This document shows positions 1-13,593 of a DNA stretch of 13,593 bases, in pieces; within the stretch, counting starts at the first letter, position 1; every line of letters begins with the position of its first letter. Source of the DNA: Gemmatimonadaceae bacterium (GTDB lineage: Bacteria; Gemmatimonadota; Gemmatimonadetes; Gemmatimonadales; Gemmatimonadaceae); contig JANYKY010000086.1 in the NCBI GenBank assembly GCA_025357975.1, positions 1-13,593 on the forward strand. Reading direction: 5' to 3'. The notes under the pieces were generated by a model. The model was not told the DNA's origin. It made no database searches and saw only the letters and a program-made list of their open reading frames with translations. Made by a program: the position numbers and the translations under genes.

Positions 1-1287
1 GCCGCCTCTCACGTCCGCGAACACGGCGCGTGAAGGCACGCCGATCTTCTTGCCGTCAACGACGATCTGGCGGCCGTCCTCATAGGTGATGTTCGCCGGT
101 CGCATGACTGCACGAAAGCCGAGTGAGTCGACGAGGTAAACAAACAACGGATTCTGGCGTCCATTCTGATCAGGACCGAGCACCCTACCATATAGTAGTG
201 TGTACGCGCCTGCCCGCGCCGCGCCCCAATCCCAGGTCACTCCACGCCACACCCCCCAGTTGTGATCGTGGTACGATTGCGCGTTCGAGTACGTCTCGCA
301 CTTCTCACTGATGCAGATTTTACCGCTGGCACTCGATCGCAACCCGGGTACGGTGTATCCGGAGACAAAGGTGCCCGAGCTCAACGAAGCTCCAGGGAAG
401 TACGCACGGTGGGCGGGCGCGACTACGAGATCGATTTTCATTGGTGCGCCATTATCGAGTGCGCGCACGTCAGCATGCACAGCATACTCACCGTCAGGCA
501 TCACGCGAACCATCGACGACCCCAGAGTGAGATCGGCATTCGCAGTAGAGAACTGCACTGCCTGATGAGGAATGTACGAAGCGAACTTTCGTGACGCTCC
601 TCCTTCATCGCGCAGAGTTACCGTGACGCTGCCTCCCCACTCGCTACTGCTCACGTCACCAGCAACGATGAACGAAATAAATGCCCAATGCTTCTTGTCC
701 TGGGACAACAAGTTGAAGTAGTGCCATTCTGCCCAGCTCGACTTGTTCGCCGCGCTATCCGGCGGCATGTGGAAGTGGTCGATCTGATTTCGGAGCTCGA
801 ATAGCGAGGGCGTCACCCACATTCTGTCACCATCATCGCTGGCCCATTTTCCCGCGCCGATCAACACTGGTCCGTGCACAGACTTCGTCTTGTCGGGAAT
901 CTCGCCGCTCGCGCGCACTGGATACTCCGTTCCGCGCGCAGTTCGCAGGTAGACGAGCCGCCCATCGATCTGAGGCGCAACGGCACTCACGGACGATGCC
1001 AGACGAGGAGATGAAAGCAGCTGGTCGTAGACGAATCGCGCGTGGTCGATGGAAAAAAACAGGCCGCCGACTCCGCCGGTTTTCATCACTTCGACATCGA
1101 GCCCTTGCGGCAGGACAGTGATCGCGCCACCGCCGACAAGCTTCTCATCTTTCGCCTGCGTGAGGAGTGCTTCGCCGATCGATAACAGGACGATCATCAC
1201 GGAAACGCCAACTCCGTATCCGAAGAACAGCAGCACCGAGCGCCACGGCCGGTATATGATATTTCGAAACGCGAGAAGCCGGATCAT
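1..1287 (-). CDS. Permease-like membrane anchor fused to CrtC/AttH-type lipocalin domain (3' end outside window)
   Basis: The frame is open for 429 codons from an ATG at 1287 to the left edge, so the C-terminus is missing. Residues 1-42 look like the start of a MacB/FtsX permease: a basic N-terminus (MIRLLAFRNIIYRPWRS), then a hydrophobic segment at about 17-42. Residues 43-140 resemble the first part of a MacB-type periplasmic domain. From about 160 the protein changes to a two-part lipocalin-like fold of the CrtC/AttH family (COG5621-like). SWAEWHYF (184-191) fits the first half-barrel, and YHDHNWGVW (339-347) is the hallmark of the second. The start overlaps the ATPase stop by 4 nt (ATGA), so it is probably translationally coupled. 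Known AttH/CrtC relatives are secreted lipocalin-like proteins or carotenoid hydratases. I infer that it binds or modifies a lipophilic substrate handled by the ABC exporter. No second to fourth membrane segments are seen before the edge. The domain call is fairly sure; the function is not known. Confidence 0.8.
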   Translation of the reverse strand, partial: MIRLLAFRNIIYRPWRSVLLFFGYGVGVSVMIVLLSIGEALLTQAKDEKLVGGGAITVLPQGLDVEVMKTGGVGGLFFSIDHARFVYDQLLSSPRLASSVSAVAPQIDGRLVYLRTARGTEYPVRASGEIPDKTKSVHGPVLIGAGKWASDDGDRMWVTPSLFELRNQIDHFHMPPDSAANKSSWAEWHYFNLLSQDKKHWAFISFIVAGDVSSSEWGGSVTVTLRDEGGASRKFASYIPHQAVQFSTANADLTLGSSMVRVMPDGEYAVHADVRALDNGAPMKIDLVVAPAHRAYFPGASLSSGTFVSGYTVPGLRSSASGKICISEKCETYSNAQSYHDHNWGVWRGVTWDWGAARAGAYTLLYGRVLGPDQNGRQNPLFVYLVDSLGFRAVMRPANITYEDGRQIVVDGKKIGVPSRAVFADVRGG

Positions 1288-2009
1288 TCGTCGACGATCG
1301 ATCCGTCGCGCATGTGAATCCTTCTGTGCGCAGCGCGGGCGAGGACTTCGTCATGCGTAACGACAATAATCGTCGTACCATCACCGTTCAGCCTCTCGAA
1401 CAGCGAAATCACTTCACCGCCGGTTTTTGCATCCAGCTCACCGGTGGGCTCGTCGGCTAACAGAATCGCGGGGTTGTTCGCGAGAGCCCGCGCAATCGCC
1501 ACACGCTGCTGCTCTCCGCCGGAGAGCTGCGATGGACGATGACGCTCACGGTGACCGAGCCCCACGTACGCAAGCAGCTCGCGCCCTCTCGCAACTCGTT
1601 CGCCCTTTTTCTTCCCCGCTTCCGCCATCGGGAGCTCGATGTTCTCGAGAGCCGACAGCGTGGGCATGAGATAAAAGCGCTGGAACACGAAGCCGATGTT
1701 GTGCAGGCGAAAGCTCGTTGCCTCTCTGTCCCGCATCGATCCAACGTCATGACCTCGGATTCTCACCGTGCCCTGACTCGGCGAGTCAACGACACCAAGA
1801 AGGTTGAGCAGCGTGGACTTGCCGCAGCCCGATGGGCCGACAACGGCCACATAGTCCTTCTCGCCAACGTCGAAGGTCACGCCCTTCAAAGCATGAATGC
1901 TCTCTTCGCCGAATTTGTAGTCACGTCCGAGATTGCGCGCCTCGACAACGGCCGCGGAGGGAGTCCCACGCCGGACGTCGCTTCTGTGAACATCCTCGAT
2001 AGTGGTCAT
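1284..2009 (-). CDS. ABC exporter ATPase, MacB/LolD type
   Basis: This 241-residue protein is the cytoplasmic ATPase that powers the adjacent FtsX-type permeases. All motifs are intact: Walker A GPSGCGKST (58-66), Q-loop Gln110, signature LSGGEQQRVAIARAL (162-176), Walker B ILLADEP (182-188), D-loop around 191-195, and H-loop His219. FQRFYLMP after the Q-loop and the length of about 240 residues are typical of the MacB/LolD/FtsE group, which mechanically drives periplasmic permeases and does not import solutes. The frame is open further upstream (to 2120), but the ATG at 2009 overlaps the TGA of the preceding permease (ATGA) and begins the conserved region sensibly, so I chose it. The ATPase stop overlaps the next start in the same way. 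The substrate cannot be read from this subunit. AttE of the Agrobacterium attEFGH operon is a plausible analogue. Confidence 0.93.
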   Translation of the reverse strand: MTTIEDVHRSDVRRGTPSAAVVEARNLGRDYKFGEESIHALKGVTFDVGEKDYVAVVGPSGCGKSTLLNLLGVVDSPSQGTVRIRGHDVGSMRDREATSFRLHNIGFVFQRFYLMPTLSALENIELPMAEAGKKKGERVARGRELLAYVGLGHRERHRPSQLSGGEQQRVAIARALANNPAILLADEPTGELDAKTGGEVISLFERLNGDGTTIIVVTHDEVLARAAHRRIHMRDGSIVDE

Positions 2010-3193
2010 GCAATCGCGTCCTGTCGGAGAGTCGTCGCAATAGGAAGCGATGCCGCACGGAATGACGGGTACACTCCTGCCGCAATTCCAGACAGAGCGA
2101 GTAGTCCCAGCGCCGTCCATGCCGACGACGGCTGGAACAGAAAGAAATTGATCGCCACCGGAAGTCCGGGAAAGCTTGAAAGAATCGCGTTGAGATAGTG
2201 TCCCGTTGCGAGCCCAAGCCCAAGCCCCGCGATCGAACCTGTGATCATGAGCGCAGTCGCTTCCATCACGATTTGTTGAACGATGTGGCTACGCGACACG
2301 CCGAGAGCACGCATGACTGTGATCTCGCCTATGCGCTCGTTGACCGAAACGGTTACGAGCGTCGTAACCAGGAGAAATCCGACAAAAAGGCTGACAGATC
2401 CCAGAATCACGGCGAGTTGCCTGAAATAGCTGAGACGTTGATCGACCTGAACGAGAGCGGTCGCGGTAGAGATGCCGCTGACGCCGGGAATCATCCGCTC
2501 GGTCCAGCGGCGAACTCCCTCCACCTCGGAATCGTTTCGAATCCTGATCATGAAAAGCGAAGCATCGTTTGCGTGCTCGGTGCCGCTCAGTTGCTGAAGT
2601 GTGCCTAGTCTCATTGCTGTTGCGAGCTGATCCGCCGCGCCATAAAGAAATCGCACGCGACCGGTGAGAACCATTTTTCGCGACGCTGCATAGGTGCGGA
2701 GCTCCGGATCGTAGCCACTGGCAATATCCAGCGTGTCTCCGATGCGCGCTCCCGTCGCCTTCAGGAAATCATCGTTTCCGACAATGGCGTCGTCAGCCAG
2801 CGGATCCTTACCGGCGAGCAACTCGTAGTCGCCTTGCACGAGCGGGTTTATCCCGAGCGCAGAGCTCGTGACGACACGATTCCCGCGCGGAATCTGGATG
2901 GTTCCGCCAAGTACCGGGCTTACTGTAGTAATGGCTGGGTTGGTCCGGAGGATGGTAAGGATTCCGCTCGTGTTCTTGATCGTCGCATCTGTGTCGAACG
3001 GAAGCGTTCCCTTCGGCGCGAGGCGCAGCTGAAATCCGCGCGACAGCAGCAGCTCACGAAAGGATTCGCGCATTCCGGTCGACATCATCACCATGTCGAG
3101 CAGCATCGCAGCGGCAACGGCGACTCCGAGTGTTGCGAGCAACGTGCGCGTTGTATGTCTTCGAAGCGATGACCATGCGAGAGCGAATCTCAT
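2006..3193 (-). CDS. FtsX/MacB-family ABC permease, full length
   Basis: This 395-residue inner-membrane permease has the standard FtsX layout. It has a basic N-terminus and TM1 (about 17-38), then a periplasmic domain (about 40-255). TM2 (about 258-283) is followed by the cytoplasmic coupling helix NERIGEITVMRALGVSRSH (285-303), and then come TM3 (about 305-335) and TM4 (about 356-378). The E-I-x-V-M-R-A-L-G segment is the family hallmark that contacts the ATPase. The start is the ATG at 3193, which overlaps the upstream permease stop as TGATG. A longer in-frame extension to 3532 exists, but it runs antiparallel inside the neighbouring permease and is unlike any permease, so I rejected it. 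It should form a heterodimer, or pair in another way, with the short permease encoded immediately upstream. The periplasmic domain (for example AGKDPLADDAIVGND, 127-141) shows no recognisable substrate signature. Confidence 0.9.
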   Translation of the reverse strand: MRFALAWSSLRRHTTRTLLATLGVAVAAAMLLDMVMMSTGMRESFRELLLSRGFQLRLAPKGTLPFDTDATIKNTSGILTILRTNPAITTVSPVLGGTIQIPRGNRVVTSSALGINPLVQGDYELLAGKDPLADDAIVGNDDFLKATGARIGDTLDIASGYDPELRTYAASRKMVLTGRVRFLYGAADQLATAMRLGTLQQLSGTEHANDASLFMIRIRNDSEVEGVRRWTERMIPGVSGISTATALVQVDQRLSYFRQLAVILGSVSLFVGFLLVTTLVTVSVNERIGEITVMRALGVSRSHIVQQIVMEATALMITGSIAGLGLGLATGHYLNAILSSFPGLPVAINFFLFQPSSAWTALGLLALSGIAAGVYPSFRAASLPIATTLRQDAIA

Positions 3194-3996
3194 CAGCGGC
3201 CGAACAGAGAAATCGGTGGGGTTCGCGCGAGGCGTAGCGATGCGAGCAGGCCGGCTCCGATTCCGAGAACGAGCGAGAGAACGACGGCGAGAGTGAGAAT
3301 TGGTGGCGTTATAAGCGAGAAGTACAGAGGTGTGCGGTACACTCCCTGGTAGTACCAGTTGATGAACGTCGATGCGATGTAACTGAGAGCGATGCCGAGT
3401 GCACTCCCTACCAGCGCGAGCAACGCAGCTTCCGCGACGACAGAGAGGACGACTGTGTATCGAGAGATGCCCATCAATCGAAGTGCAGCTATGTCGCGCC
3501 TGCGCTCTTCGACTTTGAGCAGCATGATGCAAAGCAGGAAGATCGCACTCGCGACAATCGTGATGAAGCCGATCGCTTTGTGAAATCGGCTGACTACCTG
3601 AAACGTCTTGGAAGTCTCGACCGCAATGTCGCGCGAACGGTGTGCTTCGAATCCGAATGCGGAAGCGTTGATTTCGGCGAGCGCTTTTTCTGTTGCCGCT
3701 GGACCGCGTGTCGCAACTGCGAATCGATCGACTCTGTCACCGTAACCAGCGAGCGACTGCAGTTGATCCAGATGCATCCGCACTCTGTATTCGCTTCGCG
3801 CAATCTCGGCGGGATCGGCTCCGCGTTTGACGATCGCAGAGACGATTACGGTGTCGCCCATCGTTGCGTTTGGTGCACCGGATACTACGACACGATCTCC
3901 AATCCGGATGTGCGCGTCTTCGGCAAGTCGCTCATCGATTGCGATCGTTCGCTGCAACGGATGCTGAATCAACAATAAGGCGGCAAGAAGAGGCAT
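3193..3996 (-). CDS. FtsX-family ABC permease, N-terminally short
   Basis: This 267-residue protein has the C-terminal part of an FtsX permease: TM2 (about 141-161), coupling segment KVEERRRDIAALRLMGISRY (161-180), TM3 (about 181-210) and TM4 (about 230-256). Residues 16-40 resemble positions about 127-155 of the neighbouring full-length permease. Roughly 110-125 residues expected at the front, including a proper TM1, are therefore absent. The N-terminus (MPLLAALLLIQ) has only about ten hydrophobic residues and no basic residues before them, which makes a poor signal or anchor. I chose the ATG at 3996 because AGAAGAG lies at a suitable distance. A GTG at 4002 is also possible, and an in-frame TAG lies a few codons further up, so no longer form exists. 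The gene lies about 30 bp after the repressor gene and overlaps the next permease by one base. It may be a genuine short subunit or an old N-terminal deletion. Confidence 0.82.
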   Translation of the reverse strand: MPLLAALLLIQHPLQRTIAIDERLAEDAHIRIGDRVVVSGAPNATMGDTVIVSAIVKRGADPAEIARSEYRVRMHLDQLQSLAGYGDRVDRFAVATRGPAATEKALAEINASAFGFEAHRSRDIAVETSKTFQVVSRFHKAIGFITIVASAIFLLCIMLLKVEERRRDIAALRLMGISRYTVVLSVVAEAALLALVGSALGIALSYIASTFINWYYQGVYRTPLYFSLITPPILTLAVVLSLVLGIGAGLLASLRLARTPPISLFGR

Positions 3997-4025
3997 GAAC
4001 ACTCTTCTAACCTAGCTGGACAATG

Positions 4026-4751
4026 CTAGTGCGCGGGTGCCTCGAGATCGGTCAGCGGTTCCACCATCACCTGCGACGCGAGCTGGGGCCCAATCGCCAG
4101 CATCGTTCCGGAAACGGCCAGGGCAATCGGCCCTTCGTACGGCGCCTTCGAGATCACAATCAGCTCGGCTCCCGGCATGATCTGAAGCTCACCGAGGTAT
4201 CGCAGCATCTCAGGATCCTCATCGCTCACTCTCACAACTCGAGCTCCGTACCCCGCGCCTAGCTCCGCGAGAGACAAATACTCGGTCTCATCCATGTCGC
4301 CTTCGCGGGACGGAATCGGCGCTCCATGCGGATCGGTCAACGGCTCGCCAATGGCCGCCGCCATTCTATCCACCAACTCGTCCGACGCCGCATGCTCCAG
4401 ACGCTCGGCCTCAGCATGCACGCGATCCCAGGGGTAGTTCAGCGCACCTGACAGGTATGCTTCGATCACCCGGTGCCGGCGGAGAGTGCGAAGTGCTGCC
4501 CGCCGGCCGAGGTCCGTGAGTGTGACACCACGATATCTCTCATATGAAAGAAATCCGTGACCCGCGAGGCGCCGAACCATTCCGCTGACAGACGCAGGAG
4601 TGAGGTCGAGGCGCTGCGCGATGTCGTTGGTGGCGACCGATACGCTGCCTCGCCCAAGCGCGTAAATCGCCTTCAGATAGTCTTCAACCGCACCGGTCAG
4701 CGGCTCTTCGGACGAGTCGGTGATGCTCAGATGAGGGCGTTTGCCTTTCAT
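4026..4751 (-). CDS. mntR: DtxR-family metal-dependent repressor, manganese (MntR) type
   Basis: This 241-residue protein has three parts. A winged helix (about 18-82; recognition region TPASVSGMVRRL, 51-62) is followed by a metal-binding dimerisation domain (about 83-135) and a C-terminal FeoA/SH3-like domain (about 155-230), as in long DtxR/IdeR-type proteins. Aligning by eye on HRVIE (93-97) and VHAEAERLEH (111-120) gives ligands Asp24, His93, Glu97, His112, Glu116, Glu119 and His120. DtxR has Met10 and Cys102 where this protein has Asp24 and Glu116. Asp and Glu at these sites are the manganese-type choice of MntR. The residue matching MntR Glu11 is Lys27, which is odd. The start overlaps the universal stress gene (ATGA). 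It probably represses its own operon through the dyad upstream of mntH. Family assignment is firm; Mn specificity is inferred. Confidence 0.9.
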   Translation of the reverse strand: MKGKRPHLSITDSSEEPLTGAVEDYLKAIYALGRGSVSVATNDIAQRLDLTPASVSGMVRRLAGHGFLSYERYRGVTLTDLGRRAALRTLRRHRVIEAYLSGALNYPWDRVHAEAERLEHAASDELVDRMAAAIGEPLTDPHGAPIPSREGDMDETEYLSLAELGAGYGARVVRVSDEDPEMLRYLGELQIMPGAELIVISKAPYEGPIALAVSGTMLAIGPQLASQVMVEPLTDLEAPAH

Positions 4752-5197
4752 TTGCGAGGGCCCGAACGTCCGCGCGAGCTTCCGCGAACAAGCAGGACTG
4801 GAACGGTGGAAGAATGCCGAACCGTATTCGATACGCTCCCGTGGACCAGGTCAGCGATACCCTTGTGACCGTGAGTACCCATCGCAATGAGGTCGCAGCC
4901 TTCCCGAGCTGCGGCCTCTGCGATCTCCGAGGCCGGATCACCCGAGGCAAGCAAGGCTTCAGCGTCGAGGCCGTCGGCTTCCAGCGTCCCGGAAAGCTTC
5001 TCGATATAATCGCGGTCTGTCTTCATCTCTTCGCTCTCGCGGAGCTTGAGTTGCGAGATGTTGCGCGCGGCCCATCCATCGGCAACATGAATGAGCACGA
5101 TTGACGAGTTGCACACCTTCGCAAGCTCGCGGACGTGATCGACGATCGCGTCATCGTAAGGCGAATTCTCTACCGGCATCAGTATTTTTTTGTACAT
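4748..5197 (-). CDS. Universal stress protein, ATP-binding UspA family
   Basis: This is a 149-residue single Usp domain, of typical length. It begins with the usual beta strand MYKKILMPVENS and ends with strand VPVLLV. The ATP-binding signature G-2x-G-9x-G-S is intact (GTHG, nine residues, then GS; about 107-121), so it is the nucleotide-binding kind. The mntH stop (5201-5203) abuts a possible GTG start at 5200. I prefer the ATG at 5197, which begins the conserved domain directly. The last codon overlaps the mntR start by 4 nt. Its place between an NRAMP transporter and its repressor suggests that it modulates transport or signals stress in the same regulon. That link is inferred from position only. 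Confidence 0.9.
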   Translation of the reverse strand: MYKKILMPVENSPYDDAIVDHVRELAKVCNSSIVLIHVADGWAARNISQLKLRESEEMKTDRDYIEKLSGTLEADGLDAEALLASGDPASEIAEAAAREGCDLIAMGTHGHKGIADLVHGSVSNTVRHSSTVPVLLVRGSSRGRSGPRK

Positions 5198-5200
5198 CAC

Positions 5201-6565
5201 TTAGTGTCCGCGAAAGAACTGTACGACCAGCCAGAGATTCAACACGAGAATAACTATCGCAACCACATAAGCGACAGTCTTGAGCCACGTCGCATTGGCG
5301 AACTCTCCCATCTTCGCCTTGTCCGACGTAAATGCGACCAGCGGAAATACGGCAAACGATAGCTGCATGCTGAGAATTACCTGGCTCAATATCAGAAGCC
5401 TGGCCGTTCCGCTCTCGCCATACATCACGGCCACCACTGCTGCAGGGACGATTGCAATGCCCCGCGTGATGAGTCGCCGCACCCACGGACGAAGGCGAAT
5501 GCTGAGAAATCCTTCCATCACGATCTGCCCCGCCAATGTCCCCGTCAGGGTCGAATTCTGGCCAGACGCGAGAAGCGCGAGCGCGAACATGGTGCTCGCA
5601 CCCGCTCCCAGCAATGGAGTCAGCAGCTTGAACGCATCCTGAATCTCAGCCACTCCGGTATGACCGCTGCTGTGAAACGTGGCCGCTGCAACGATAAGAA
5701 TCGCCGCATTAATGAACAACGCGAATGTTAGCGCGAGGGTCGAATCGATAAAAGCAAACCTCACAGCTTCGTGTTTTCCTTCGGCTGTCTCCTCGTAGCG
5801 TCGAGTCTGAACGATCGACGAGTGCAGGTAAAGGTTATGCGGCATCACAGTCGCGCCTAGTATGCCGACGGCGACATAAAGCATGGCCGGGTTCGCGATG
5901 ACCTGGCCTCGCGGAATGAATCCCGCCATCACCGCTCCAAAAGGCGGGCTCGAGAGAACTATCTCGAACAGAAAACAAAGACCAACTGTTGCGACCAGAG
6001 TGATGACGAGCGCCTCGAGCACCCGGAATCCCTTGTTCTGCAGATAAAGGACGACCATCACGTCCAATGCCGTGAGCCCGATTCCGATGGCGAGCGGAAT
6101 ATGAAAGAGAAGGTTCAGCGCGATAGCGGACCCGATTACTTCTGCCAGGTCGCAGGCGGCAATCGCAAGCTCACAGATGACCCACAGGAAATAGGCGACA
6201 GGCGCGGGGTAGTGATCCCGGCACGCCTGCGCGAGATCTCGCCCGGTGACAATTCCAAGCTTGGAGGCAAGTCCCTGGAGGAGGATTGCCATCAGGTTGG
6301 AGATGAGGATGACGCTCAAAAGCGTATATCCGAACTGCGATCCGCCTGCGAGATCGGTTGCCCAGTTGCCCGGATCCATGTATCCCACGGCTACCAGGTA
6401 GCCCGGACCCGCGAAGGCGAGCATCTTCCGCCACCACGTGCGCCCCGTAAGCGGAACAGACCTGTAAACCTCTGCGAGAGAGGGAGTTACACGCGCTTTA
6501 CGCCAGCCTTTTTCGGGACGACCAGGCTCGTCTACATTAGTTGGAGGGGTTAGTTGTGTTGCCAC
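5201..6565 (-). CDS. mntH: NRAMP-family proton-coupled Mn(II)/Fe(II) transporter
   Basis: This is a polytopic inner-membrane protein of 454 residues with about 11 membrane segments, which imports divalent metal with protons. The two metal-site signatures are present: DPGN at 64-67 in TM1, inside the conserved [20 protein letters not shown] block, and MPH at 241-243 in TM6 ([13 protein letters not shown]). The NRAMP loop [19 protein letters not shown] is also clear. The start is GTG at 6565, with a weak GGA about 5 nt upstream. Residues 1-45 form a poorly conserved hydrophilic tail. An alternative start inside the gene would be Met48, which would leave little before TM1. The gene heads the seven-gene minus-strand unit and lies 50 bp below a DtxR-like dyad. 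A second, degenerate dyad covers its start codon. Mn(II) as the main substrate is inferred from the paired MntR-type repressor. Confidence 0.94.
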
Positions 6566-6568
6566 TAA
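6550..6568 (-). promoter_or_regulatory. Possible second, degenerate repressor dyad over the mntH start codon
   Basis: On the plus strand TTAGT at 6550-6554 is mirrored by ACTAA at 6564-6568. The interior contains TGTTGCC, which also occurs (reverse strand) within the strong dyad upstream. The mntH GTG (6563-6565) lies inside the site, so bound repressor could block initiation or elongation. The arms are short and two inner pairs fail, so this is a weak call. Confidence 0.35.
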
Positions 6569-6615
6569 GATCCGATGTTTGACCCGCGAAATTGAGGAGT
6601 GTCGTGATGTAGTAA

Positions 6616-6643
6616 GATTAAGTTAGGCAACACTAACTTAATC
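6616..6643 (-). promoter_or_regulatory. DtxR/MntR-like operator upstream of mntH
   Basis: A perfect inverted repeat with 11-bp arms, GATTAAGTTAG and CTAACTTAATC, is separated by 6 bp (GCAACA). The nine inner bases of each arm (TTAAGTTAG) differ at one position from the classic DtxR/IdeR half-site TTAGGTTAG. The classic site has a 1-bp centre, whereas this one has 6 bp. The dyad lies 51-78 bp upstream of the mntH start, in the only gap of useful size in front of the operon. It most likely overlaps the promoter, and the MntR-type protein encoded two genes downstream is the obvious ligand. I could not pick convincing -35 and -10 hexamers around it. Confidence 0.75.
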
Positions 6644-6687
6644 GCAAGTGCGGAGTTCATGCCCCGCTTCATCGGGTTCGCCTGGTG

Positions 6688-7281
6688 CTAGCCGACCAAG
6701 GCCAGCATACCCGAAAGTATCCGCTCCGTCATCCCCCAGACGACAAAGTCTCGATGATGAAACGCAACCGTGCTCACCTCCCTGCCGCCAGCCCGCACCG
6801 TTGCATTTCTCCACATCGATCGGTCGAGGAGCGCCGTCATCGGCACCCAGAAACAGTCCGCCACCTCCGAGCTCAAGACCAAATCGGCACAACGGGCCAC
6901 AAGAAAAACGAACGGCCGCACCACAATCGAAGGCAAGCGAACTATCTGTGAGTGCAGGTCATCGAGAACACCAATGAGCTCGCCGCATTCCCCTAAATCG
7001 ATACCGGTTTCCTCCAGTGTCTCTCGCATTGCCGTAGCGGCCAGGGTGTCGTCCTGATTTTCCTCGCGGCCGCCGGGGAAGGCTATCTGGCCGCTCCACG
7101 GATCCCCCTCGAAAGTGGCACGCCGGATAAAAAAAACCTCCGGCTCGTCACCGTCACCGAGACGAACCAGTATCGCGACGGCAGCCCTCTGAGCCGACGG
7201 ATTGTCCACCTCGACCGCACTACGCGATCCCAGCTCAGCTCCAAGCTTTGCAACCCGAGGCTCACTCCGAACTGCATCCAA
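6688..7281 (-). CDS. Nudix hydrolase, CoA pyrophosphatase (NudL/YeaB)-like
   Basis: This is a cytoplasmic metal-dependent pyrophosphohydrolase of about 197 residues. It has SGQIAFPGG followed by the Nudix box RETLEETGI. The acidic residue six positions after the second Gly of FPGG, and the eight residues before RE, match the NudL/CoA-pyrophosphatase spacing and not the plain MutT one. The upstream part of the NuCoA motif is degenerate (FFIRRATFEGDPWSG), so CoA specificity is probable but not proven. The start is uncertain. The frame opens with TTG at 7317 inside the preceding hydrolase gene, has a GTG at 7290 and a TTG at 7281. I chose 7281 because GGGGTGA lies about 5 nt upstream. The gene follows the hydrolase closely and probably ends that operon. 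A 122-bp gap with the metal-repressor dyad follows. Confidence 0.85.
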   Translation of the reverse strand: MDAVRSEPRVAKLGAELGSRSAVEVDNPSAQRAAVAILVRLGDGDEPEVFFIRRATFEGDPWSGQIAFPGGREENQDDTLAATAMRETLEETGIDLGECGELIGVLDDLHSQIVRLPSIVVRPFVFLVARCADLVLSSEVADCFWVPMTALLDRSMWRNATVRAGGREVSTVAFHHRDFVVWGMTERILSGMLALVG

Positions 7282-7297
7282 CGAGGTCACCCCGCCG

Positions 7298-8131
7298 TCA
7301 CGCCATATTGGCGGCAAAGAAATCGACAGTCTCGCTCGTTACCATTGCGAGCATTGGCGTTAAGTCGCCGAGGGGATGCTTTCCTCCAAGCGAATGATTG
7401 GTCCCCTTGACCACTCGAAGCTTGCTGGACCTCGGCGCCAGTCTGCTGAGTTGCTCCGCTTCCGCGACCGGCACTGTCTCGTCGTCCGCGCCATGCACAA
7501 TCAACCAGGGAACGCTGATACGCGACGCGGCCAGAGGGATATTGAGGCTGGTCTGGGCGAACTTCTCGACTTCATCGAGGAGCCCCGTGCTGACTGGAAT
7601 CGTCTGCTTCGTTCGCGAATTCTCTATATCCATGAATCCCGTCTTCCGCCAGTTCGCTACTGTCTCTCCGGACCATCGGTTGACGCTCGCAATTGCCGCC
7701 CATGTGACGAGCGCCTTTACGTGCCGGTCCTTCGACGCGTGAAGAATCGCGACTCCGCCCCCACGTGAATGGCCAAAGAGGCCGTAATCGCCAGTGATCC
7801 AATCGCGGACGCGCGCCTCGTCGACGACCACCTCTACGTCCTCCAGTTCCTGGAGAAACGTGTTATGGGTGAACGCCTCGGGATTGGTGAAATTTTCCCG
7901 ATCTTCGCCAATACCGCTGCCGGAAAAATCAAACGTGATCGCCGTGATGCCCGCATTCGCAAGCTGCTCAGCGAGATATGGGAAGAAGGAGAAATGCGCG
8001 AATCCCTTGAATCCATGACAAATCACGACGGTGCCGTGTGCTTCTGCTGGCAGTCGCGCCTCGCCTCTGATGATAAGAGGCCTCTCGTCTCCACGGTCGC
8101 GCCGGAGCTCGAACTCTTCGATGGATGTCAT
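7298..8131 (-). CDS. Alpha/beta hydrolase (serine esterase/peptidase fold)
   Basis: This 277-residue protein has no signal peptide and is probably cytoplasmic. The catalytic triad is visible: nucleophile Ser122 in GHSRGG (120-125), acid Asp216 or Asp217 in HGADDETVP, and His246 in GTNHSLGG. HGFKGF (39-44) forms the oxyanion-hole turn, as in dienelactone-hydrolase/acyl-peptidase-like relatives. An insert of about 60 residues between strand 6 and the acid (about 150-205) would be the cap that sets substrate choice. The substrate cannot be named. The ATG at 8131 overlaps the rhodanese stop as TGATG, so the two are probably translated together. GFKGF followed by HFSFF is typical of a common bacterial family annotated only as hydrolase. 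Confidence 0.88.
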   Translation of the reverse strand: MTSIEEFELRRDRGDERPLIIRGEARLPAEAHGTVVICHGFKGFAHFSFFPYLAEQLANAGITAITFDFSGSGIGEDRENFTNPEAFTHNTFLQELEDVEVVVDEARVRDWITGDYGLFGHSRGGGVAILHASKDRHVKALVTWAAIASVNRWSGETVANWRKTGFMDIENSRTKQTIPVSTGLLDEVEKFAQTSLNIPLAASRISVPWLIVHGADDETVPVAEAEQLSRLAPRSSKLRVVKGTNHSLGGKHPLGDLTPMLAMVTSETVDFFAANMA

Positions 8132-12918: not shown

Positions 12919-13593
12919 GTGCAATCGCTCGCGGCCGCCGCAAAACTCCTCGAAAACGCGCTGGAAGCAACGGGTGCGCTCGCACTCCTCGCCGACCTCG
13001 GGTTTGCCGACACGCCGCTGCCGCTTTCCGGAAGTGAAGCGGAGTCGATAGGTCTTCCGCACGATGGAGGACCATATGCGATAGTCGAGGGTGTTGGCGC
13101 ACTGAGAGCGCTCATAGTCGGCGTCAAAGTTCCAGGCGCGTTGAGGCCCGAGGTGGCGCGCATCGCCTCTCGATTGAGCACCTGCGCCCCGCATCTGCTT
13201 TGGACCATCGTCGCTCGTGATGATGCCACCGGTGAGTTGGCGATCGCCGCGTGTGACACGGGCAAAGCGAGGGCGCATGTCGCAGCGCTAGTCGTCAGGC
13301 CGGGTCACATCGCCGCAAGCGATGCGGAGACCGTCTGCGCGCTCGCCGCGATCCGTTGCGAATCTGACCTGCTTCTGCACGCGAGATGGCTTGAAATTCT
13401 TGGTCGCGAAAGTGTAAATCGGCGCTTTTTTCGCGCGCTCGAGGCCTCGATCAGCTGTCTCGCGCTCGACGTTACGCCGACGCAAGGTTCTGAAGATGCG
13501 TCTGAGCTTGCGCTTCTATATGCATCCCGACTGCTGTTTCTCTCCTTCCTTGAAACGAAGGGCTGGCTGGATCGCGACCACGGATTTCTTGGC
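12919..13593 (+). CDS. N-terminal part of an Eco57I/type IIG-like restriction-modification protein (3' end outside window)
   Basis: The frame is open for 225 codons from GTG 12919 to the right edge. An in-frame TAG at 12907 makes this GTG the first possible start. No clear Shine-Dalgarno site is seen. The useful evidence is at the end. VNRRFFRALE (166-175), then after a variable linker LALLYASRLLFLSFLETKGWL (197-217) and DRDHGFLG, is the pattern at the head of large Eco57I-type or type IIG DNA methyltransferase/endonuclease proteins and related phage-defence methylases. Those usually run to about 1000 residues. The catalytic NPPY and SAM-binding motifs would lie beyond the window, so activity cannot be judged. 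The first 150 residues, with LLWTIVARDDATGELAIAAC and ALVVRPGHIAASD, have no motif I recognise. It is probably the first gene of a defence locus, as no restriction gene lies to its left. Confidence 0.65.
   Translation, partial: MQSLAAAAKLLENALEATGALALLADLGFADTPLPLSGSEAESIGLPHDGGPYAIVEGVGALRALIVGVKVPGALRPEVARIASRLSTCAPHLLWTIVARDDATGELAIAACDTGKARAHVAALVVRPGHIAASDAETVCALAAIRCESDLLLHARWLEILGRESVNRRFFRALEASISCLALDVTPTQGSEDASELALLYASRLLFLSFLETKGWLDRDHGFLG

Follow-up and report, generated by a model that had tools for sequence, protein, structure and literature searches.

Type VII ATP-binding cassette (ABC) transporters typically work with a separate periplasmic partner (PMC12646458): LolCDE passes lipoproteins to LolA, and YbbAP-TesA is proposed to extract hydrophobic molecules for the periplasmic TesA. 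The class as presented there also includes FtsEX, which serves mechanotransmission with no transport, and the sensing system BceABS. Here we describe a four-gene operon, 1-4002(-), in the window, that is the whole 13,593-nucleotide contig JANYKY010000086.1 of a Gemmatimonadaceae bacterium (assembly GCA_025357975.1; 3.13 Mb in 527 contigs). Its last gene fuses a permease-type anchor to a double lipocalin; lipocalins are cup-shaped domains familiar from proteins that handle lipids. Judged by sequence and models (gene order, complementary coverage of a permease by two genes, lipocalin fold and co-occurrence), the operon probably encodes one Type VII transporter of the MacB/LolCDE type, with a permease split over two chains and the lipocalin covalently built in.

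The genes, called here PERM2, PERM1, ABC ATPase and LIP, follow one another in this order on the minus strand, neighbours overlapping by 1-4 bases:

3193..4002, minus strand: PERM2, permease C-half, 269 amino acids
3952..4002, minus strand: PERM2 residues 1-17, short hydrophobic, signal-peptide-like start
2006..3193, minus strand: PERM1, intact MacB/LolC-type permease, 395 amino acids
1284..2009, minus strand: ABC ATPase of MacB/LolD type, with the ABC_tran match
1..1287, minus strand: LIP, permease N-half and double lipocalin of AttH fold, truncated by the contig end to 429 of about 510 amino acids
823..1287, minus strand: LIP residues 1-155, cytoplasmic start, first transmembrane helix (TM1) and first half of a periplasmic domain of MacB type; the boundary is approximate
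1..810, minus strand: LIP residues 160-429, double lipocalin, its final strands beyond the contig

Stop and start codons overlap at each junction, as ATGA between the ATPase gene and LIP and between PERM1 and the ATPase gene (whose ATG lies at 2009), and as TGATG between PERM2 and PERM1. The starts of PERM1 (3193) and of the ATPase (2009) were placed by these overlaps and by relatives; the longest open reading frames begin further upstream.

The ATPase matches ABC_tran at E 5e-33 (114.9 bits, in a scan of the longer frame to 2120). Its best NCBIfam models are MacB (231 bits) and LolD (227 bits), both below their equivalog cut-offs; a MacB/LolD type is therefore assigned, not an identity. Both permease proteins carry the FtsX-type C-terminal domain of Type VII transporters above cut-off, PERM1 at E 4e-18 and PERM2 at E 1e-18. 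PERM1 aligns in addition with MacB_PCD over positions 1-143, below threshold, and its profile matches MacB and LolC/E in the PDB. It holds TM1, the periplasmic domain and TM2-TM4 on one chain, a full subunit as in MacB/LolCDE. The second subunit, in contrast to these systems, appears to be divided midway through the periplasmic domain: PERM2 contains the second half of that domain and TM2-TM4, with three hydrophobic peaks and no TM1. In the operon we saw no separate partner of the MacA or LolA kind; the fused lipocalin stands there instead. The PERM2 matches at G069:C1:1151346-1152146 and G128:C108:3460-4248 each contain one in-frame TAG, which may be the gene's own stop where the match ends or a real interruption.

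The piece missing from PERM2 looks like the N-terminal half of LIP. This half aligns with MacB_PCD positions 1-103 below threshold, with PERM1 1-62 in a local comparison (E 9e-5, probability 60%) and with PERM1 1-156 in a global one (E 8e-7, probability 84%). Against the PDB, the LIP profile finds the TM1 piece of 5xu1_M (residues 5-47) at E 0.012; two further matches, at E 0.14 and 0.35, are chance-like. The permease N-half is present in all 199 LIP genes that retain their 5' end, and the permease-lipocalin fusion is real. A reading of the window made earlier from sequence only had seen this anchor with the beginning of a MacB-type periplasmic domain, a lipocalin fused to them and the ABC transporter genes of the same operon, and this stands; it overlooked that PERM2, the first gene of the operon, looks like the C-terminal permease half. 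Its idea that TM2-TM4 might follow the lipocalin fails. Full-length LIP proteins mostly have about 475-520 amino acids, and only 2 of the 192 with a retained stop codon extend more than 100 residues beyond the lipocalin. These two, L111:3049-5361 and L114:3387-5702 from Gemmatimonadota metagenome-assembled genomes (MAGs), are 771-772 residues long and end in a serine-hydrolase domain of the Beta-lactamase2 family (PF13354, E about 1e-50), not in TM2-TM4. This extension may hint at an enzymatic role for the partner.

LIP residues 160-429 carry the motifs SWAEWHYFN, C..C, YHDHNWGVW and WDWG; HDHNW is invariant. No lipocalin model in Pfam or NCBIfam matches the window protein; PF00061 is absent from the Pfam matches of 22 family members, and there is no sequence match to CrtC/hydroxyneurosporene synthase above cut-off. 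After residue 150 there is formally no lipocalin-type profile match in Pfam, and naming the domain CrtC/AttH by sequence, as the sequence-only reading did, does not hold. The structure comparison overrides the missing match and bears out its two-part lipocalin: in the model of the relative L057, the duplicated AttH fold is matched across both barrels, which sets the domain apart from a strict single-barrel lipocalin. Compared by profile with 16 AttH frames, the lipocalin part is collinear across 280 columns, in which EWHYF aligns with EWWY and HDHNW with DREW; at E 0.011 and a probability of 3.7%, we do not claim homology to AttH from sequence.

The split genes travel together. In a set of 100 loci, five of which occur twice, the sequence upstream of LIP extends for 3.3 kb or more at 78 loci, and the order PERM2-PERM1-ATPase-LIP is found in 77 of these 78; L118 was struck because an assembly gap splits its operon. 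In a set of 201 loci, which contains duplicates, every one of the 164 loci scored was assigned a PERM2 upstream, the call for L118 being wrong and that for L275 right for the wrong reason, its genuine PERM2 lying at the margin of the retrieved stretch. In a draw of 200 phylum genomes, taken from shared genome labels to be the same across the LIP, PERM2 and Lipocalin_9 searches, LIP (E<=1e-50) and PERM2 (E<1e-90) pick out the identical 75 genomes, with an empty symmetric difference. Two candidates for separation were rejected. The next PERM2 match, G200 (E 1e-32), is a fragment beside mntR at a contig end; in L118, a run of N splits the operon, and PERM2 and the start of PERM1 lie at another such run of the same assembly. 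L118 and L286 (CP070670.1 / G154) show operon parts far apart at N runs, likely a scaffolding error in a MAG chromosome. Residue covariation (regularised inverse covariance over 134 operons, positive control weak) gave no excess between the LIP N-half and PERM2 over mixed blocks.

LIP is common in Gemmatimonadota, not universal. It was matched in 37 of 61 genomes and, at E<=1e-3, in 183 of 395 phylum genomes; the count of 75 of 200 (125 without LIP) is preferred, because many of the weak matches probably reflect no more than an ordinary TM1. Among named relatives, L056, a Gemmatimonadaceae MAG, is the closest (81% LIP identity). The best 80 of 282 confirmed matches are nearly all titled Gemmatimonadota or its groups, the other titles being Armatimonadetes (L131, L133) and Abditibacteriales (L132); names in the database matches listed add Armatimonadota, Bacillati bacterium ANGP1 and Candidatus Eisenbacteria. 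The Armatimonadetes locus L131 has the complete operon in unchanged order and a clear signal-peptide-like PERM2 start, which means that the arrangement either is old or was transferred between phyla. A second LIP copy (L051, G000:C193, 3-1100), 56% identical, starts right at the border of a different contig within the same assembly and may be a paralogue or a foreign contig in the MAG. L072, titled Candidatus Kuenenia stuttgartiensis, has a Gemmatimonadota-like LIP operon (55% identity) and is probably a misbinned contig.

The nearest described relative by composition is AttEFGH, whose four gene letters come from the literature; we apply the label here by domains and gene order. Both systems combine, in a single operon, an ATPase, two FtsX-type permease units and a double lipocalin of AttH fold. 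Within the phylum, however, AttEFGH-like loci encode AttH as a separate protein of about 400 amino acids, as the sequence-only reading had it, and their order is ATPase-permease-AttH, where here it is PERM2-PERM1-ATPase-LIP. Their permeases form one double protein of about 850 amino acids: each of the 8 loci inspected has a frame of 848-903 residues between ATPase and AttH (two overlapping ones in L173), and the three such frames scanned contain two FtsX stretches each, two of them also two MacB_PCD stretches. The window has one complete and one split unit instead of two complete ones. PF07143 and PF17186 both match two scanned AttH proteins of the phylum (PF07143 at E 1e-60) and do not match the window LIP; in the source genome, searches for CrtC and Lipocalin_9 found no separate AttH matching these models, a weak negative, since the 14 control genomes gave no match either. 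The LIP N-half profile found nothing in the 16 AttH frames, the longer of which were trimmed to 110 residues before EWWY. Structurally, NE1406 (2ich; PMC2954199) has the AttH fold in a solved chain without a permease part and shares 13% identity over the structural alignment.

Lipocalin_9 occurs in 18 of the 200 phylum genomes, with an ATPase upstream in 16 of the 18 loci (none in L175, on a short contig, or in L184). Only G031 has both a LIP and a Lipocalin_9 protein, the latter with no ATPase found beside it. An overlap of at most one has P 0.0017 assuming independent genomes, which genomes are not. It looks as if one arrangement replaces the other.

In the split transporter that we favour, PERM1 would be one normal permease subunit and the second would be assembled from two chains. 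LIP would give TM1 and the first periplasmic half, and PERM2, exported by means of a signal peptide of its own and presumably cleaved behind it, the second half and TM2-TM4. The AttH-fold double lipocalin would thus sit at the break point of the permease, carried by the N-half. By analogy with LolCDE-LolA and YbbAP-TesA, ATP-driven movement would draw a hydrophobic molecule, possibly one resembling an isoprenoid or a quinone, out of the inner membrane and into the lipocalin. Tethered at the cut and unable to leave, the lipocalin would be expected to act not as a shuttle, but as an on-the-spot acceptor that passes the ligand on, or as an enzyme in place. We tentatively propose a more specific version, in which TM1 and the half-domain of LIP dock onto PERM2, movement of the two periplasmic halves, driven by ATP, opens and closes the built-in lipocalin acceptor or enzyme directly, and the system apparently replaces AttEFGH.

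Another reading makes the lipocalin an enzyme: an AttEFGH relative could feed a membrane isoprenoid- or steroid-like substrate to a lipocalin of cyclase, hydratase or lyase type. This is possible, if short of probable, and overlaps with our favoured split transporter, of which it is the enzyme version. With or after AttH, the closest folds of the model are the Diels-Alderases Fsa2, CghA and Phm7, 25-phosphosteroid lyase and kievitone hydratase, and they weakly favour an enzyme; all are solved as chains without a permease part, and a common fold proves no activity. Pfam adds weak matches, with 5 of 22 members hitting Tocopherol_cycl (E 0.025 at best) and L125 hitting AsqO_C (E 0.0039, under cut-off), beside the invariant HDHNW. 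YbbAP-TesA, a Type VII transporter proposed in PMC12646458 to feed a hydrolase, offers a parallel; there, TesA is a separate protein and YbbP a single chain of about 800 residues (9ge6).

Alternatively, the hydrophobic start of PERM2 could remain uncleaved and substitute for TM1; PERM1 and PERM2 would then form the transporter, and LIP would merely be an anchored partner lipocalin. By crude criteria, 81 of 82 PERM2 proteins start with a hydrophobic 11-mer, and the local match between LIP and PERM1 barely exceeds a helix, as this account would have it. An A-x-A-like motif follows the 11-mer in 69 of the 82, however, and the start is short; in the window copy it is a weak signal, with no 19-residue hydrophobic peak, and it is clearer in many relatives. 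LIP moreover retains, beyond a mere helix, the very periplasmic half-domain that PERM2 lacks. We consider a mere anchor unlikely.

Upstream of PERM2, on the same strand, lie manganese-uptake genes:

4026..4751, minus strand: MntR/DtxR-type regulator, by profile matches, 23 nucleotides upstream of PERM2
4748..5200, minus strand: small protein, presumably UspA-like by its sequence
5201..6565, minus strand: MntH, NRAMP Mn2+ transporter (NF001923, 638 bits against a cut-off of 430)

This mntH-usp-mntR group is kept in closer relatives and missing from most distant ones: of 40 closer loci, 36 have MntR upstream and 27 have MntH, and of 17 distant loci 3 and 4, respectively. Because these neighbours are rare in distant loci, manganese is rejected as a general substrate; they suggest shared regulation in closer relatives at most. 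Downstream of LIP, often within a few kb, about 40 of 100 clustered loci have a conserved protein, presumably DUF72-like. At the right end of the contig, an open frame at 12919-13593(+) runs out of the window and has no Pfam match up to E 1. Scans of 1-7400 for promoters (0 promoter-like sites, 2.5 expected) and terminators (10 terminator-like sites, 6.1 expected, standard deviation 2.8) were not used.

We think it very improbable that the operon is a sensor, in which a ligand on the fused lipocalin signals through the permease with no transport. FtsEX and BceABS offer Type VII precedents (PMC12646458); against it, no kinase was noticed among the recurring neighbours, a weak argument as the neighbour clusters were not individually identified. 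An assembly or fusion artefact, which the end of the window within LIP might raise, can practically be dismissed, given the N-half in every LIP gene with a 5' end and 175 complete operons (134 distinct under 98% identity) from many assemblies, the chromosome-titled CP070722 included.

Among the titles listed in searches of the open-licence PMC literature, none concerns a lipocalin fused to a permease half. The family is large, with 2877 and 2138 LIP-profile matches at E<=1e-3 in two protein database searches, each among about 8000 scored candidates. The readable names among the best 120 of each search are hypothetical or uncharacterized, P0055 (lipoprotein-release permease component) excepted. 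AttH-type proteins were tied to ABC transporters through genome context in 2009 (PMC2954199).

The covalent fusion is strong evidence that an AttH-type lipocalin and an ABC transporter act together, and can be tested with one operon; to our knowledge, no joint function of the two has been shown so far. A cut permease with its partner built in is also a natural experiment, fixing which periplasmic half carries the partner. The split permease with its fused lipocalin suggests a pump with a lipid acceptor or an enzyme built in. If true, Gemmatimonadota and, going by named matches, Armatimonadota and some other bacteria would possess a Type VII machine with the partner protein inside the moving permease.
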